Shown here: one piece after another, positions 26,958-59,490 of the stretch
How positions within the stretch are numbered: the first letter of the stretch is position 1
Layout of the letters: each line of letters begins with the position of its first letter
Source of the DNA: a virus
DNA: 64,000 nt
Strand: one strand, 5' to 3'
IMG/VR virus record: IMGVR_UViG_3300005264_000255
Span: 1-64,000 of that record
Position numbers and translations under genes: made by a program
The notes under the pieces: model-generated
What the model was told of the DNA's origin: nothing
What the model saw: the letters and a program-made list of their open reading frames with translations, nothing else
Database searches by the model: none

Positions 26958-28627
26958 CTATCTATAACTATTAATGAACTGGTTATTATAATTAGTGTTA
27001 GTGTTATTGAAATTGGTATTTTGTGAACCAAATGACATATTACCTACAGCTGAATTATTGAATGATTGTAAAACAGATTGTAAGTTACTGTTATTAATGT
27101 ATCCAATATTAGGAGCTTAATTTCTAGATTTAACATACTTGATAATTTGTTAAGTACTTCTAGTTTTAATGTATATGGATCTTTACCCGTACATCCCATA
27201 CATATACTAGTTGATGTATTTGAAGTGTTCCAGTCATCAACTAGTTTTGCATCATTTGTATTTTCAGTAATAAATACTACATCTATTTCAGATAAATCTC
27301 TTACATTTTGTTCACCATCTAGGAACTCACCTATAGGAATATAAGAACCTTCATTAGCAAGAACTTTTATGTTTGGTAAATCATAACCAATAAGAGCACT
27401 TGCCTCATTAAGGATAAGGTCATTTGCAGCAGCTTTATGTTTGTTATCTAATAACGCAACAAATGGTTTCATAAATGAATAATCAGCACCATATAGTTCA
27501 ACCTCTAATACAAAGTTTGGATTAAGTCTAAAGTGTGTGTTAATGATGTCCTGTATCATTTGTGGTTGAGCACTTTCATCTCTGAATGAAATCTTTTCAC
27601 CTAGAGCGTTTGCGTCACCTTTGTAGTTAAGTATGTAGTTTAACGGTCCAGCATCATTAGCAATAATAAGTTGTTTCAAAGTTTCTTTGTTAGTAAAGAT
27701 AGCAGAGTTAATTAAACCAAGTAAAACATATGATAAACTTGTACCAGCTGCACTAAACTCATTGAACTTGATGATTGGCTCAGCTATATTTCTATCTTGA
27801 CCAGTGTACTGTAGATTTTCTCTACCTAGAATGAAGTCTAATACACCTGTTTGATTTACCAAGTTAATCTTTTTACTACTTGTGTTAAAACCTCTAATAT
27901 TATTTTTAGACGATAACGATGTTAAAAGATTGAAGTCAGTTCTAACTGGTCTACCAATCTTGTTATAAACTGTACCAGTAGTTAGTGATAACTCTACATT
28001 AACACCTGTTTGGTTAGCAGTACAATAATCCTGTATACCTGGAATAGTAGGGTTTTTAAAGCTACCTACTTCTAAGTAGTATTTAGTAGCAATGACATTG
28101 TGAATATATCTTGCGATACTTATACCTGTTGTAGTCATGTCGATAGAATGTGATAGTACGAAACCATCTAATGAAACATGTGGTACATTTGGATACTTAG
28201 AGTTGACAATTTCATTAATTTTATCATAAGTACCTTTTACGAATACATCACTTGTTACAAGACCAGCATCACTATTTCTAATTTGTTGTTCAGCTACAAT
28301 TTGAGTTACATTTAATGGCTCTCTACCTGTTGCTTCAACGATAGCTAAGAAGCTATAGACAACATTGTTTTCACCTTTGTAAGCATATAACACACCACCG
28401 AACTCGCCATCTAATATTTCTTTTTCTAATTTAAAGATTTTGATTTCAATTTGAAAATCTTTAGCTGCCTCTACAGAAGCTAATGATAAATCGTTCAATG
28501 CTTTATTGCTACCAAAGTTATGAAGTAGTCCTGAACCAATACCAGATAAACCTAGAATACTTATGTTTGTACCATTGTTAGGAGTCTCTTCTTTAATGTC
28601 GTTAGTCTCGCTGCGAGTTTCATTCAC
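26958..28627 (-). CDS. abundant-type phage protein, possible nuclear shell protein (chimallin); frame broken near 27118
   Basis: A GTG start at 28627 gives a protein beginning MNETRSETNDIKEE. The uninterrupted frame ends at 27044 with an implausible hydrophobic tail. Shifting by -1 at GAAATTAAGCTCCT (about 27118) continues as LEIKAPNIGYINNSNLQSVL with a Gly/Asn/Gln-rich tail ending FINSYR at 26958, next to the shared terminator, so one A is probably missing. The body is a soluble mixed fold of about 480 residues with flexible ends. Size, tails and lack of enzyme motifs would suit the shell protein that phages with PhuZ use to build their nucleus, but I cannot confirm any sequence match; a virion protein is equally possible. 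Confidence 0.5.
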
Positions 28628-33088: not shown

Positions 33089-36007
33089 ATGGAAGACTTT
33101 AAGAAGATAAGATATGACTATAATCATAGAACAACTAGATACACATTCTATATGAATAATATAAAGAAGTTTAAGAAAGCATTAGAAACAGTAACAGGTA
33201 AATCATTTACTAAATATTTGTTTAAGAATGAAACAACTAGTAAATTTGAGATAAGAGAATTCTTTCTTTTAGAATTACATTTTGTATTAAAGTTAATAAA
33301 ATCAGATTATCCTAGTGTAGGATTAGATATAGGTGGTATCTACCTTAATAACCTAATAGAGTTCTTAGAGACAGTAACATGGTTACGTAATAGATATATT
33401 GTAGATACTGATAAGTTGTTTGATTTAAACCATCTAAAAAGAAATATGAAGTTCTTACCTATGAAACACCAACTAGAAGGTTTTAAGAAATATGAGGAAG
33501 TTAAAGAAATGTCTAATCTATCTGGGTTCATGTTAGATGCAGAACCTGGTACTGGTAAAGATTTAATAAATGGTACTAAAGTATTAGTACCTAATGGTAG
33601 TAGAGTCATAGAGTCATTGAAAGTAGGTGATGTTGTTATAGGTAATGATGGACTACATACTAAGGTAACTGGTGTTTATCCACAAGGTTATAAAGAACAG
33701 ATCAAACTTACGTTTAAAGATGGTAGAGAATCAATATGTGGACTAGGTCATCTATGGGAGACCATTGTTAACGATAGTACTATGTTATTAGATACCTATG
33801 AAATTATAACTCTAATGGATAACAATATGAAAGTTAGTATCCCGTTATATAAACCAGAATTAAGTATTAGTAAAATAGATGTTATACCTACCTCTTTTAA
33901 ACTAGGAGTATTCATAGATGCTACTACTAAATTAAAGTCTATACATTCACCTATAGGTGATTATTTTACTTTACCATTATCTTATAGGTATAATCTATTA
34001 CAAGGTCTTCTAAGTACTACTATGATTGATTTTACTGGTAACACATTAATCTACAAGGTAAAGGATATACGTTTAGCTAAATCACTTATTGAAGTTATAC
34101 ATAGTATTGGTGATATCGCTACTATGGAGAAAAACAAAGATGATTATGATTTACACATAACATCTAGAAATCTTAAAGTTTATAGAAAAGGTTACATCCT
34201 AGATATAAATGATTTTAATAATGATTTAAACTTAGAGTTAGTTAGACATGAAAGTATCGGTAAATTTGAATCTACATGTATAAGCGTTGATAATGAAAGT
34301 AAGTTATTCGTTATAGAAGACTATCTGGTAACTCATAACACATATATGTCATTAGCCTTAAGTGAGTTATTAGATTATGAATTAGTTATCATTGTAGCAC
34401 CTAAGAATACTCTACATGAGGTTTGGTTAAAGTCAGTAACCGAAACATTATATAAGAGAAAACAAACTGCTGTAGTGCTTGGTACGGACTCTAAAGAATA
34501 TAATGATGAGAAGTTTATCATAACTCACTATGAGTATCTTAAGAAGTTATCCCTAGATAAGAAATTAGCTAGAAGAATAAAGAAACTAAAACCTATGTTA
34601 ATAGTAGATGAGTTCCATAACTTCAATGAGATAACCTCTGGTAGGATACAAGTCTTAAGAGACTTTGTTACATATATGAAATTTACTGATATAGCACTAC
34701 TTACGGGTACTCCTATAAAAATGAGATTAAAAGAATTAATACCTATGTTATATCTGGTAGATAATAGATTCCCTAAGGCTAGAGAAGACTTTGAGGACTA
34801 CTATGCTAATCTACAAGGAATAAAGATAGATATGATTAGGCATAGGTTTAATCTTTATAAGAAACGTATACAGAGTACTAATACGAATAAAGGTGAGATA
34901 GAAATTAAAGAGTTTAAGATATCTTTGAAAAATGGTAATGATTTTACTATGGAAGCCATATCTTCACGGATGACTGAATATAAACATACTCGTTTATTAG
35001 AATTAGAAAGTAATATGGATTCTTATAAGATAGAATTCAATAACTTAATTACCCAAGCCAGAACAACTATGATTAATAAGGGATTACTTATTAAGGACAT
35101 AGACGCTACATTAAAAGAATATAGAACCTATGTTAAGACTATTAAGAGTTATTCTGATAAGGGTAAGTTATATCGTATATACGATATAGTAAATAAAGCT
35201 AGTACCATAGAAAAAGAATTTATAACTAAATACTTAGATGGTGGTTTTAAGAAACACTTCAGACATATAGCATCTATAGTTAAGTATCCTAAATTTAAAG
35301 TACTTGGTGAAGCTTTAGGTAAAATCCTCTTAGGGTCTAGAATAGAGTGTTATAAGGGATTAGCTGAGAATTTAGAATATAAGAACTTACTAGGTATAAC
35401 TAATAAGAAAGGTTTAGTATTTAGTAATTATGTTAGTGTTTGTGATGCAGTGATTACAAAATGCAGATTAGAAGGTTTTAATCCTATTGGTGTTTACGGC
35501 GAGCATATGGAGAATCTTAATAGTAATGTTAAGTTATTTAATGATCTATCCACAGATGTAAATCCTATAGTAGCTACTTATAAAGGTTTAGGAACTGGTG
35601 TCCCGTTAACTTCTGCTAATGTGGTTATCCTTATAGATACAGCTTTAAGAAGTTTCACATTAGAACAGGCAATCTCTCGTTCTTATAGAATAGGTAATAA
35701 TCATAAGGTAACTTGTATTTTTATTAAATTAGATACAGGTACTGAATATAATATAACTGAAAGAGATTTATATATCGTAAACACCTCAGAATACAACGTA
35801 GAGATGATAACTGGTAACAAACCGATATATGATATACCTAGACAGACTTTGGAGTCTCCTGATGATGATACAGATGTTATCTCTGAAGAATTAGAGGAAG
35901 AGTTAGAGGAAGTAATATCTACGACTTTACTGAATGCCAATTTAATGGATACCAATATTATAATTGATTATGTAAAAAAAATAATGAAAACAATAAAAAT
36001 AATATAA
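33089..36007 (+). CDS. SNF2-like superfamily 2 helicase containing an intein
   Basis: The precursor is 972 aa and the spliced enzyme would be 712 aa. Helicase motifs in order are the Walker A half AEPGTGK (151-157) completed by T418 after the intein, the DEFH box near 507-510 (LIVDEFHNF), LLTGTP near 540, and a C-terminal QAISRSYRIGNN near 859 that matches SNF2 motif VI. An acidic Glu-rich segment lies near 930-945. SNF2/UvsW-like phage helicases remodel branched or protein-bound DNA in replication and recombination. Because the intein splits the ATP-binding loop, the unspliced protein should be inactive. AAAGGAACATA precedes the ATG. Confidence 0.8.
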   Translation: MEDFKKIRYDYNHRTTRYTFYMNNIKKFKKALETVTGKSFTKYLFKNETTSKFEIREFFLLELHFVLKLIKSDYPSVGLDIGGIYLNNLIEFLETVTWLRNRYIVDTDKLFDLNHLKRNMKFLPMKHQLEGFKKYEEVKEMSNLSGFMLDAEPGTGKDLINGTKVLVPNGSRVIESLKVGDVVIGNDGLHTKVTGVYPQGYKEQIKLTFKDGRESICGLGHLWETIVNDSTMLLDTYEIITLMDNNMKVSIPLYKPELSISKIDVIPTSFKLGVFIDATTKLKSIHSPIGDYFTLPLSYRYNLLQGLLSTTMIDFTGNTLIYKVKDIRLAKSLIEVIHSIGDIATMEKNKDDYDLHITSRNLKVYRKGYILDINDFNNDLNLELVRHESIGKFESTCISVDNESKLFVIEDYLVTHNTYMSLALSELLDYELVIIVAPKNTLHEVWLKSVTETLYKRKQTAVVLGTDSKEYNDEKFIITHYEYLKKLSLDKKLARRIKKLKPMLIVDEFHNFNEITSGRIQVLRDFVTYMKFTDIALLTGTPIKMRLKELIPMLYLVDNRFPKAREDFEDYYANLQGIKIDMIRHRFNLYKKRIQSTNTNKGEIEIKEFKISLKNGNDFTMEAISSRMTEYKHTRLLELESNMDSYKIEFNNLITQARTTMINKGLLIKDIDATLKEYRTYVKTIKSYSDKGKLYRIYDIVNKASTIEKEFITKYLDGGFKKHFRHIASIVKYPKFKVLGEALGKILLGSRIECYKGLAENLEYKNLLGITNKKGLVFSNYVSVCDAVITKCRLEGFNPIGVYGEHMENLNSNVKLFNDLSTDVNPIVATYKGLGTGVPLTSANVVILIDTALRSFTLEQAISRSYRIGNNHKVTCIFIKLDTGTEYNITERDLYIVNTSEYNVEMITGNKPIYDIPRQTLESPDDDTDVISEELEEELEEVISTTLLNANLMDTNIIIDYVKKIMKTIKII
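33560..34339 (+). other. class 3 intein in the helicase Walker A loop (260 aa)
   Basis: The insert spans precursor residues 158-417, between GTGK and T418. It begins DLINGTKVLVPNG, so position 1 is Asp and not Cys, Ser or Ala. Block B ends GHLWETI with W223, block F has C397 in STCISVD, and the end is LVTHN followed by Thr. This Trp-Cys-Thr set is the signature of class 3 inteins, which use the block F cysteine as first nucleophile. Between the splicing blocks are two weak relics of LAGLIDADG motifs (KLGVFIDAT and LLQGLLSTTMID) lacking the catalytic DG, so homing activity is probably lost. Confidence 0.8.
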
Positions 36008-46247: not shown

Positions 46248-48059
46248 ATGTTATATAATATTGGTGAATGGAAATCTGAAACAGGACTTATTCACAACAA
46301 AACATCTTGGAAATTAACCAGAGATGTGGACGGTTTAATGATTGAAGAAGAAGTTGTAGAAAGTGATACATCTCTTAATGCATGGGAAGTTAAAAAGATT
46401 ATCCCTACAGGTGAGATATGGTATGTTAGTGCCTTGAGACACTTAATAGATACTGCAGGTAATGATATATCCAATAATAAATGGATAGGACCATATCCTG
46501 TCATTAGTGATGAGTCTAATGTTAGTGACTATTTAGCTCCAGAGTTTTACATATCTGAACCTTATATAAACAAGTTGGCTTATGTACCAGGTATGGGCAT
46601 TAACTTATCTGTTAATATGTACGAGAGTAATGTGGCATATGATCGTACTCTTCTACTAATAAAGGATGATAATAACATCATTATCTATAAGGCAGAGTTA
46701 AATCTAACTAAAGATACATTGGATTATCAGATACCTATTAGTGCTTTCAATTTTACAGATAAAAATGTATTACAAATTGAAATAGTTAATATTGCTAAAC
46801 ATTCTACGGTATCTCCTATATGTAGAGAACATATTATTTTAAAAGATGTTTATTATAATATAATCGGTAATACGTTAGGACTGAATCCACTTGAATCTAA
46901 TTCGTTTACAGTTAAAGGTACAGCGTCGTTACCTGTTATTGTTAATAGTGTTAAGCTATTAAATACTAAAAGAGAGTTTATTTGTGATTGTATTATTGAG
47001 ACAGATGGTTTTACAGTTCCTGCTGTCATGACACATAACCAAAGTTACCTAGTAGAAACAGTTTTAGAGTATACTGATGAGAATATTAAAAGTAAATTAG
47101 TAACTGATTATCTTTATTTAAGTACTATGTTACTTACTGAAAAGACCAATATAGATCCTAATTATAAATACGAGTATACACTTAGTCAAGTCAAGTCGAT
47201 TAACTTGGGTACTAGTAATGATAACTTAGTTAGTGATATAGGATATAATACTGAAGAAATGTTTAGTAATCTAATACCTATTATAGGTAAGGTTAGTAAT
47301 AAGTTAGATAACTATATATATGACTCAGAATTAAATAACTTTATCGTAGGTAAATCATCTACATATGATTTTGATATGCCTCATACATTTAGATTATTAA
47401 CTAAAGATAGAGGTTACTTATCTTATAGTCTAAACGATAGACTTGTTATTGAAGTACTTAAATATGATGCCTATACAAACACCTTTACTAATCTAGTTAC
47501 TATAACTACAAATATCCGTACATCTAGTGGTAACATAGGTAAAGTTGTAGAGATGAATGATGAGTATTATGTATTTGGTTTAAATCCTGATAATACACAA
47601 GAGATAAATGTCTATAAGTTAGACATCATGTCGTTAACATTAACTTTAATTAAATCAGTGATTATAGATAAACCTTTAACCGATTTAACGGCTACTTCTT
47701 TAAGTGATACAGAAATCATTATAACACCGTTTGGGGAAGATGTTAATAGATTATATAAGTATAATATCACACAGAACAATATAGATGTTACATTAGCAAT
47801 GCCTTATAGTTTTATAGGTACTGAGCAAATGAGTGTTAAATTAAGAAATGGTAATATTCTTAATGTTAAGACTAATTATGTAACTTCTAACCTAGAAGTT
47901 TTCTATATGGATACTGTTAAAAATGTTATTGAAGATATGTCATATGACCTAGGTTTAAATGTAGGAGTTACTATCCAGAACATATCCATGTTAAGAAATG
48001 GTAAAGTACTTTTAACTACTAAAACAGATAATCATGTTTATATATATGAATTAAAATAA
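46248..48059 (+). CDS. virion protein with propeller-like C-terminal half, 603 aa
   Basis: The N-terminal 330 residues are beta-rich and immunoglobulin-like in rhythm. From about residue 350 there are repeated strand units of about 45 residues with G-x-(I/V)-L or similar ends (MSVKLRNGNILNV, MLRNGKVLLTTKTDNHVYIY), as in Kelch-type beta propellers. Such domains occur in tail fibres and receptor-binding proteins. The gene lies just before the sheath, so a tail location is likely. It has its own strong terminator at 48062. Confidence 0.55.
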   Translation: MLYNIGEWKSETGLIHNKTSWKLTRDVDGLMIEEEVVESDTSLNAWEVKKIIPTGEIWYVSALRHLIDTAGNDISNNKWIGPYPVISDESNVSDYLAPEFYISEPYINKLAYVPGMGINLSVNMYESNVAYDRTLLLIKDDNNIIIYKAELNLTKDTLDYQIPISAFNFTDKNVLQIEIVNIAKHSTVSPICREHIILKDVYYNIIGNTLGLNPLESNSFTVKGTASLPVIVNSVKLLNTKREFICDCIIETDGFTVPAVMTHNQSYLVETVLEYTDENIKSKLVTDYLYLSTMLLTEKTNIDPNYKYEYTLSQVKSINLGTSNDNLVSDIGYNTEEMFSNLIPIIGKVSNKLDNYIYDSELNNFIVGKSSTYDFDMPHTFRLLTKDRGYLSYSLNDRLVIEVLKYDAYTNTFTNLVTITTNIRTSSGNIGKVVEMNDEYYVFGLNPDNTQEINVYKLDIMSLTLTLIKSVIIDKPLTDLTATSLSDTEIIITPFGEDVNRLYKYNITQNNIDVTLAMPYSFIGTEQMSVKLRNGNILNVKTNYVTSNLEVFYMDTVKNVIEDMSYDLGLNVGVTIQNISMLRNGKVLLTTKTDNHVYIYELK

Positions 48060-58325: not shown

Positions 58326-59363
58326 TTATTGTAAAATACCTAAACCAGTAATATCATCATTCAAATCTATATCATCAAATGGATCATACTCTACCTGTAG
58401 TAATTCATCCATCTTAATTAACTCTGCATTAAGAATTTTAGTTTCTTTTTGTAAGATGTTTTTTCTAAATAATAGATATAATGGATACTGTTTATATGTA
58501 CTTGCTAGCTTTGCTGGAATCACGCTAGTTTTGTTATGAAATAATGGTACCTGAATATCAACAGCTTCCTTATCAGAAATGATAGTTCTACTCATCAGCG
58601 TATCTACATCACCAAGTGTACCAACATTTATACCAATACTATATATACCTGGAGGTACTGTAAATGTAGTATAGTTAGTAGCATTAAAGAAATTAATCAT
58701 ATCCTGATCATCAACACCAGTTAACGTGCCAGATGTAAAAACTGATATAGTTGATAACAGAGTAATTATCTTCTTATTTACATTTTCTTCAGAGGTAACA
58801 GTAGTGTTGTTCTTTACAGTATTATTATAGTATATAACACATAAAGCTTTCTTGTTAGATAAAGCAGCCTTTTGTAAAGTACGTATCGTATGTATGGTAT
58901 TCTTAAGATTTAAATAATTACTACTATCACCGATTGTAGCTACAATAACATTGTAACCTTTACTTAACATAAAACCTGTTAATAAAGATGCTATATTACC
59001 ACCAGAACCACCACTAGCTGAACACATGATTACATAGTAATTATTTTTATTATTTTCAAACTTCTTTTTATCTAAATATCCTTTAAGAAAAGTGAAGATA
59101 TCAGTAGCTAAATCCATATCCTTCTTCTCACCACCAGCACCATCGATTTGACTAGTAGCGATTCTATCTGTTGTGATTTTGGTAAATTTTGGTATAAAGT
59201 CTGTATAGTTATGGATAGTTTTATGTGTTGTATCTAATAACTCAATATCTACTTCACTATATCCTTCACCTAATTCTTTTAAAGTATTATGTGTCGTTAT
59301 ACCTAAATTAATACCTGCACCACCACAACCGATTATAGTTAACTTACCTGTTTTATTATTCAT
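58326..59363 (-). CDS. phuZ: phage tubulin PhuZ
   Basis: I start at 59363, nine bases behind AAGGA; an ATG three codons earlier touches the ribosome site. The 345-aa protein has the nucleotide-binding set of the tubulin/FtsZ family in PhuZ form: GCGGAGIN (12-19), DGAGGEKKD (74-82), the glycine loop SASGGSGGN (115-123), an ATIGDSSN strand-loop and a T7-like VDDQDMINF with D218 and D221. The acidic tail (YDPFDDIDLNDDITGLG) matches the acidic end that PhuZ uses for polymer contacts. PhuZ filaments centre the phage nucleus and carry capsids. An early-type promoter lies at 59557. Confidence 0.85.
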   Translation of the reverse strand: MNNKTGKLTIIGCGGAGINLGITTHNTLKELGEGYSEVDIELLDTTHKTIHNYTDFIPKFTKITTDRIATSQIDGAGGEKKDMDLATDIFTFLKGYLDKKKFENNKNNYYVIMCSASGGSGGNIASLLTGFMLSKGYNVIVATIGDSSNYLNLKNTIHTIRTLQKAALSNKKALCVIYYNNTVKNNTTVTSEENVNKKIITLLSTISVFTSGTLTGVDDQDMINFFNATNYTTFTVPPGIYSIGINVGTLGDVDTLMSRTIISDKEAVDIQVPLFHNKTSVIPAKLASTYKQYPLYLLFRKNILQKETKILNAELIKMDELLQVEYDPFDDIDLNDDITGLGILQ

Positions 59364-59490
59364 TATTTTCATTCCTTATTTTTTGTAGAGATGTTGACTC
59401 TACTATATGATTATCAGAAGTAATATCTGGACCTGTTGACACATTACTACTTACCCCTATATGACTGGTAAAAGTAGTACCATCAGCTAA
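59356..59490 (-). pseudogene. short gene before phuZ with lost start codon
   Basis: A 43-codon frame (ADGTTFTSHIGVSSNVSTGP...) ends in an overlap with the phuZ start and sits right behind the conserved leader and AAAGGATA. In the related leader at 11276 the ATG comes right here, but this copy reads ATTAGCTGATGG, so no start codon is present. Two missing bases (ATTATGGCTGAT) would restore it. Either the gene is dead or the sequence has an error. Confidence 0.4.

Follow-up and report, generated by a model that had tools for sequence, protein, structure and literature searches.

Class 3 inteins have no nucleophile at position 1 and are defined instead by a Trp at B:12, a Cys at F:4 and a Thr at G:5 (PMC3196547, PMC5050341). 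Their occurrence at the GK/T point of phage P-loop proteins (here and below, a slash marks the splice or insertion point) is already known and common, and it extends to the SNF2 helicases of phiKZ-like phages: the inteins of PhiPA3 gp233, EL ORF166, SL2, Vibrio phage VP4B and phiKT1019 occupy the same GxGK/T site in a helicase orthologous to the one described here, carry the Trp-Cys-Thr set and end in THN/T. A class 3 intein in the Snf2 protein of a bacterium, Deinococcus radiodurans, is cited in PMC3196547 as experimentally spliced; we liken it to ours by its description. The DnaB inteins of M. smegmatis (DnaBi1, 6bs8) and M. chimaera (DnaB1, 6rix) combine a Hint fold with the same WCT triplet, and DnaBi1 likewise lies in a P-loop, but both are mini-inteins without an endonuclease remnant. 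For the Snf2/Swi2 helicase of nucleus-forming phages, a role in recombination or in partnership with the phage RNA polymerase has been suggested (PMC7824862). We found no description of class 3 inteins from such phages in the literature searched; they are present in public sequence records.

We describe here an insert in the Walker A loop of the SNF2-type helicase of one such phage. Judged from its sequence and a structure model, it is very probably a class 3 intein that splices, a reading to which we assign a probability of about 0.93.

An insert within the Walker A loop of an SNF2-type helicase

The window analysed, the first 64,000 nucleotides of IMG/VR record IMGVR_UViG_3300005264_000255, is AT-rich (29% GC) and encodes both a chimallin-type nuclear shell protein and a PhuZ tubulin (Table 1), which marks the 78.5-kb fragment as coming from an uncultured, nucleus-forming, Chimalliviridae-like relative of giant phages. 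Elsewhere in the window, a 603-aa ORF (46248-48059, +) lying between a recombinase gene and a tail sheath gene had no PHROG match at E <= 0.01.

The helicase, 972 residues long, is encoded at 33089-36007 (+) in a reading frame that is open throughout. It matches SNF2-rel_dom (PF00176, 6.2e-11) and Helicase_C (PF00271, 4e-7) in Pfam and the DNA helicase family phrog_62 in PHROGs (1.2e-56), which bears out its preliminary description as an SNF2-like phage helicase. Besides the SNF2 and helicase C-terminal domains, it has the Walker A, DEFH, LTGTP and QAISRSYRIG motifs of SNF2-type SF2 helicases, and among named phages it is the SNF2 helicases of the phiKZ-like group that resemble it most closely over the full length.

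Table 1. Coordinates of the helicase exteins, the insert and its parts, and two marker genes of the window.
Feature	Coordinates	Strand	Basis
Residues 1-157 of the SNF2-type helicase (N-extein), up to the AEPGTGK that opens Walker A	33089-33559	+	ORF; insert-free alignment of orthologues L001, L002 and L459
Probable class 3 intein, 260 aa, precursor residues 158-417, Asp1 to Asn260	33560-34339	+	borders; alignment; PDB, PHROG and profile matches; structure model
Splicing part on the N-terminal side, with blocks A, N2 and B; H64 (33749-33751) and W66 (33755-33757) lie in the GHLW of block B	33560-33787	+	alignment; model
Degenerate, shortened single-chain LAGLIDADG (DOD) endonuclease remnant; limits approximate	33851-34220	+	alignment; profile; model
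Cys240 of block F (C397 of the precursor), predicted nucleophile that starts splicing	34277-34279	+	alignment; role from PMC3196547, PMC7664689
Block G Thr258-His259-Asn260, C-terminal splice border	34331-34339	+	sequence; alignment
Residues 418-972 with the stop codon (C-extein), comprising Thr+1 as the last part of Walker A, the DEFH box, LTGTP and the C-terminal helicase motifs	34340-36007	+	Pfam; PHROGs; motifs
Chimallin-type nuclear shell protein	27044-28627	-	phrog_4795, 1.5e-11
PhuZ tubulin	58326-59372	-	phrog_4733, 3.1e-38

The insert consists of 260 in-frame codons, beginning DLINGTKVL and ending VTHN between the flanks AEPGTGK and TYMSLAL, with a GC content of 28.7% against 27.2% and 29.5% on its two sides. 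Its borders and frame agree with the earlier claim that it splits Walker A between GTGK157 and T418, and the residues picked out at that time (Asp at position 1, GHLW with W223, C397, and THN/T at the end) all lie where they had been placed; W66, C240 and T258 of the intein correspond to W223, C397 and T415 of the precursor. With Asp1, position 1 has no Cys, Ser or Thr nucleophile. The Trp-Cys-Thr set is complete and is accompanied by a His at B:10 (H64), a penultimate His (H259), a terminal Asn (N260) and Thr at +1; together with the alignment to related inteins, this upholds the initial assignment to class 3. H64, L65, W66, C240, T258, H259 and N260 are invariant when the insert is aligned over its full length with six inteins of other jumbo phages, those of phiKZ-like helicases among them, and all of these except L65 were also recorded as invariant in an alignment of 33 inteins. 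Block A is divergent, reading DLIN with no xQPL motif and with Ser14 in place of the usual Trp.

The best single-sequence match of the insert in the PDB was the gp41-1 intein (E=4e-11; 6riz, 6qaz), which shares its THN terminus and has a similar block B but is a naturally split class 1 intein with a Cys1 nucleophile and an Asp at the block F position. The insert also matches terminase (1.6e-11) and helicase-loader (2.2e-10) PHROG families, which we take to hold inteins from the location of the match. Pfam was less responsive: its Hint models reach scores short of the curated cut-off, and the insert has no match to PF14890 (Intein_splicing), a result that we ascribe to weakness of the model, as it matches just 2 of the 33 related class 3 inteins. 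The preliminary description had called for an intein profile search and for a structure model of the insert, and both pointed to inteins. When a profile of the 33 related inteins was compared with the PDB, the class 3 DnaB inteins 6bs8 (4e-18) and 6rix (1e-17) were recovered, as were endonuclease parts of PI-SceI. An AlphaFold model built on the same alignment (pLDDT 88.9, pTM 0.87, with 94-98 in the splicing blocks) predicts a Hint domain and a LAGLIDADG remnant, and Foldseek placed PI-SceI first among its matches (7.5e-11), followed by gp41-1, MchDnaB-1 and M. smegmatis DnaB among others. The full-length intein alignment, the gp41-1 and PHROG matches and the uninterrupted GxGKT of relatives argue against a chance insert; with the open frame, the full-length homologues and the empty-site orthologues described below, an artefact of chance or frameshift is ruled out.

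Predicted splicing, residue 1 and the endonuclease remnant

Splicing would begin with Cys240 of block F which, activated by His64 and the surroundings of Trp66 and Thr258, would attack the Lys157-Asp1 bond, forming a branched thioester. The N-extein would then pass to Thr+1, Asn260 would cyclise and release the intein, and an O-N shift from ester to peptide bond would leave a native GTGKT loop. We infer each of these steps from the anatomy of the insert and from class 3 chemistry (PMC3196547, PMC7664689). Asp1 would be a bystander, since position 1 of a class 3 intein needs no nucleophile. Before splicing, the precursor would have no working Walker A loop, and loss of its ATPase activity is likely because the Walker A Lys and Thr would stand 260 residues apart; a P-loop intein disrupting ATPase function in Pyrococcus RadA is cited in PMC6195587. 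As far as ATPase activity is concerned, it is plausible that the helicase is held off until spliced.

Asp1 had been put forward as rare. That it is a minority residue holds: it was absent from the ~160 loci gathered, without regard to residue 1, through peptide patterns of the C-terminal end or of block N2. Ala was dominant there, Glu came second, and Met, Ser, Cys, Gln, Leu, Phe, Gly, Tyr and Pro also occurred. It is nevertheless recurrent. When IMG/VR was scanned for GxGK with Asp directly after it and block B at the same spacing, 39 stretches emerged, of which 25 were class 3-type by further motifs and 17 of these non-redundant, several of them in SNF2-like helicases (GDDMGLGK/DQPL, ADQVGLGK/DQPL); in the same scan there were 53 non-redundant cases of Glu1 and at least 96 of Ala1. 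Asp1 as a unique feature is thereby ruled out. The counterpart of Asp1 in related phages is Met, Glu, Phe or Ala, and at the orthologous SNF2 helicase site position 1 holds Asp, Met or Ala. Position 1 is thus free to vary in these inteins, with acidic residues common and Asp1 uncommon but recurrent.

The splicing residues are all kept, while the endonuclease motifs have decayed. The motifs of the remnant, SFKLGVFIDATT and NLLQGLLSTTM, compare with LGVILGDG and LVQGLMDTDG of PhiPA3, whose intein retains intact-looking LAGLIDADG motifs. In an active enzyme of this type, both LAGLIDADG helices end in catalytic acids. Where PhiPA3 has VILGDG and GLMDTDG, the insert has GVFIDATT (within LGVFIDATT) and GLLSTTM (within LLQGLLSTTM); its catalytic acids are gone, along with most of the first repeat. 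These losses make homing by the intein protein unlikely. With the endonuclease most likely dead, the element would now persist by vertical inheritance and through the cost of imprecise deletion.

Occupied and empty sites among related phages

A clade-tuned scan identified nine contigs with the orthologous helicase. In eight of them Walker A is uninterrupted (for example AEAGVGK/TYMSL and IAAGGGK/TFSSL), so that the empty site is seen directly; the ninth (L474) has a 314-aa intein with Met1 at the same point. Related phages 41-58% identical over the C-terminal part of the helicase have an uninterrupted GxGKT at the exact position of the insert. Further afield, PhiPA3, EL, SL2, Vibrio phages and two more loci (L176, L178) have an intein at this site, and several other relatives, including L181, have it empty. 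The presence of the intein is patchy, as is usual for inteins.

Two observations were made on the records of such helicases. Owing to a frameshift in the endonuclease part of its intein, the SNF2 helicase of Pseudomonas phage PA1C (L008, 1869-5023) appears in the annotation as a pair of overlapping genes; phages phiHQ, BRkr and PS119XW have a single helicase ORF, which points to a local mutation or sequencing error in PA1C, and a natural split class 3 intein is ruled out there by the one uninterrupted ORF of these close relatives. In RefSeq (NC_028999, NC_007623, NC_070650, NC_028972 and others), helicases and terminases that contain inteins but are of unrelated kinds bear the product name 'DarB-like antirestriction', apparently through a misannotation that travels with either the helicase or the intein.

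The inteins nearest in sequence to that of the window belong to its own clade: those of the L474 SNF2 helicase (Met1) and of a second SF2 helicase in G003 (Glu1), G001 (Phe1) and G007 (Met1). They are 33-36% identical to it over the full length and ~54% over the first 65 residues, share its GK/T site and have mostly decayed endonucleases, but differ from it in residue 1, and three of them sit in the other helicase gene. Intein identity to the phiKZ-like SNF2 inteins is 26-30%, and residue 1 there is Ala (AQPL or AMPL) rather than Asp. In the near relatives G003 (116 kb; DNA polymerase 57% and chimallin 35% identical) and G001 (99 kb; 51% and 41%), the SNF2 site is empty and the intein occupies the P-loop of the second helicase (L465 and L466, respectively). 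These two second-helicase inteins and that of L490 in G012 sit at GYGK/T or GMGK/T. A search of the 78.5-kb record, itself a genome fragment, turned up no second helicase.

In two trees, which like all our intein trees were composed of Trp-Cys-Thr inteins only, the window intein grouped with the second-helicase inteins of G003 and G001 with strong support (95/91 and 99/87), a placement that would imply a move between genes. That grouping fell to 88/69 once the inteins of G007 and G012, including same-site ones, were added, and a full-length tree joined the window intein to the G003 second-helicase and G007 SNF2 inteins at 92/93, a node that was not starred. A common origin with the inteins of the phiKZ-helicase site gave AU p values of 0.32 and 0.44, and the pairing of the window intein with the same-site intein of G007 gave p 0.275, values that neither back nor reject these relationships. 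The window copy may have been inherited in place or may have come from the second helicase.

Other class 3 inteins of these contigs vary in their make-up. That of the G007 second helicase (L489, G007:C1:11534-13117, -) is 531 aa long and has two tandem LAGLIDADG modules, in which a decayed copy (LGLMIGSKQ, LDGIIKGNGG) is followed by an intact one (MGALLGDG, LRGLMDTDG; PF14528), possibly a decayed intein re-invaded by a fresh endonuclease. The 252-kb contig G012 has three different class 3 inteins (L484, L488, L490), each at a GK/T site.

Alternative readings and significance

The insert might instead be a conditional class 3 intein, whose slow or redox- or metal-gated splicing would switch the helicase on at a set stage of infection. 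The parting of the P-loop Lys and Thr would suit such a role, as would the retention of every splicing residue in an endonuclease-dead insert, and the P-loop DnaB intein of M. smegmatis is reversibly inhibited by oxidation, Cys48 forming a disulfide bond with the catalytic Cys as a redox switch (PMC6195587). However, that second Cys, 19 residues before the Trp, is replaced here by Gln47, the only cysteines of the intein being C60 and C240, and the absence of the intein from the orthologous helicase of the eight related contigs indicates that the helicase can work without it. We consider this reading very unlikely, and our confidence that splicing of the insert is regulated is low. The compound proposal that an endonuclease-dead class 3 intein moved between the SNF2 and second SF2 helicase P-loops within one nucleus-forming clade, and acts here as a splicing-timed SNF2 switch, seems to us very unlikely indeed.

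A splicing-dead pseudogene, with the helicase lost or replaced, would have a precedent in the Arthrobacter Arth_1007 class 3 intein, a known pseudogene (PMC3196547), and the divergent block A would be in keeping with it. Yet H64, W66, C240, T258, H259, N260 and Thr+1 are all present, unlike in Arth_1007, and with the 972-codon frame open and the extein motifs intact such a history is highly improbable. We give almost no credence to a class 1 or class 2 route, in which Thr+1 or the Asp1 side chain would attack directly with no Cys240 branch. Position 1 is not Cys, Ser or Thr, as in class 2 inteins, and the acidic Asp1 might in principle assist, but none of our results points to such a route, class 2 inteins are known solely from KlbA genes (PMC3196547), and the complete Trp-Cys-Thr set is invariant in homologues whose residue 1 is Ala, Asp, Glu, Met, Phe or others.

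Read as a splicing class 3 intein, the insert leaves current ideas of protein splicing unchanged. It adds to a family with a drifting residue 1 an intact class 3 intein from nucleus-forming phages, together with intein-free orthologues at 41-58% identity, and the related genomes offer a system in which to follow the gain, loss and decay of one intein. The natural Asp, Glu, Met, Phe and Ala variants of these phages would also allow a simple bench test of the importance of residue 1.
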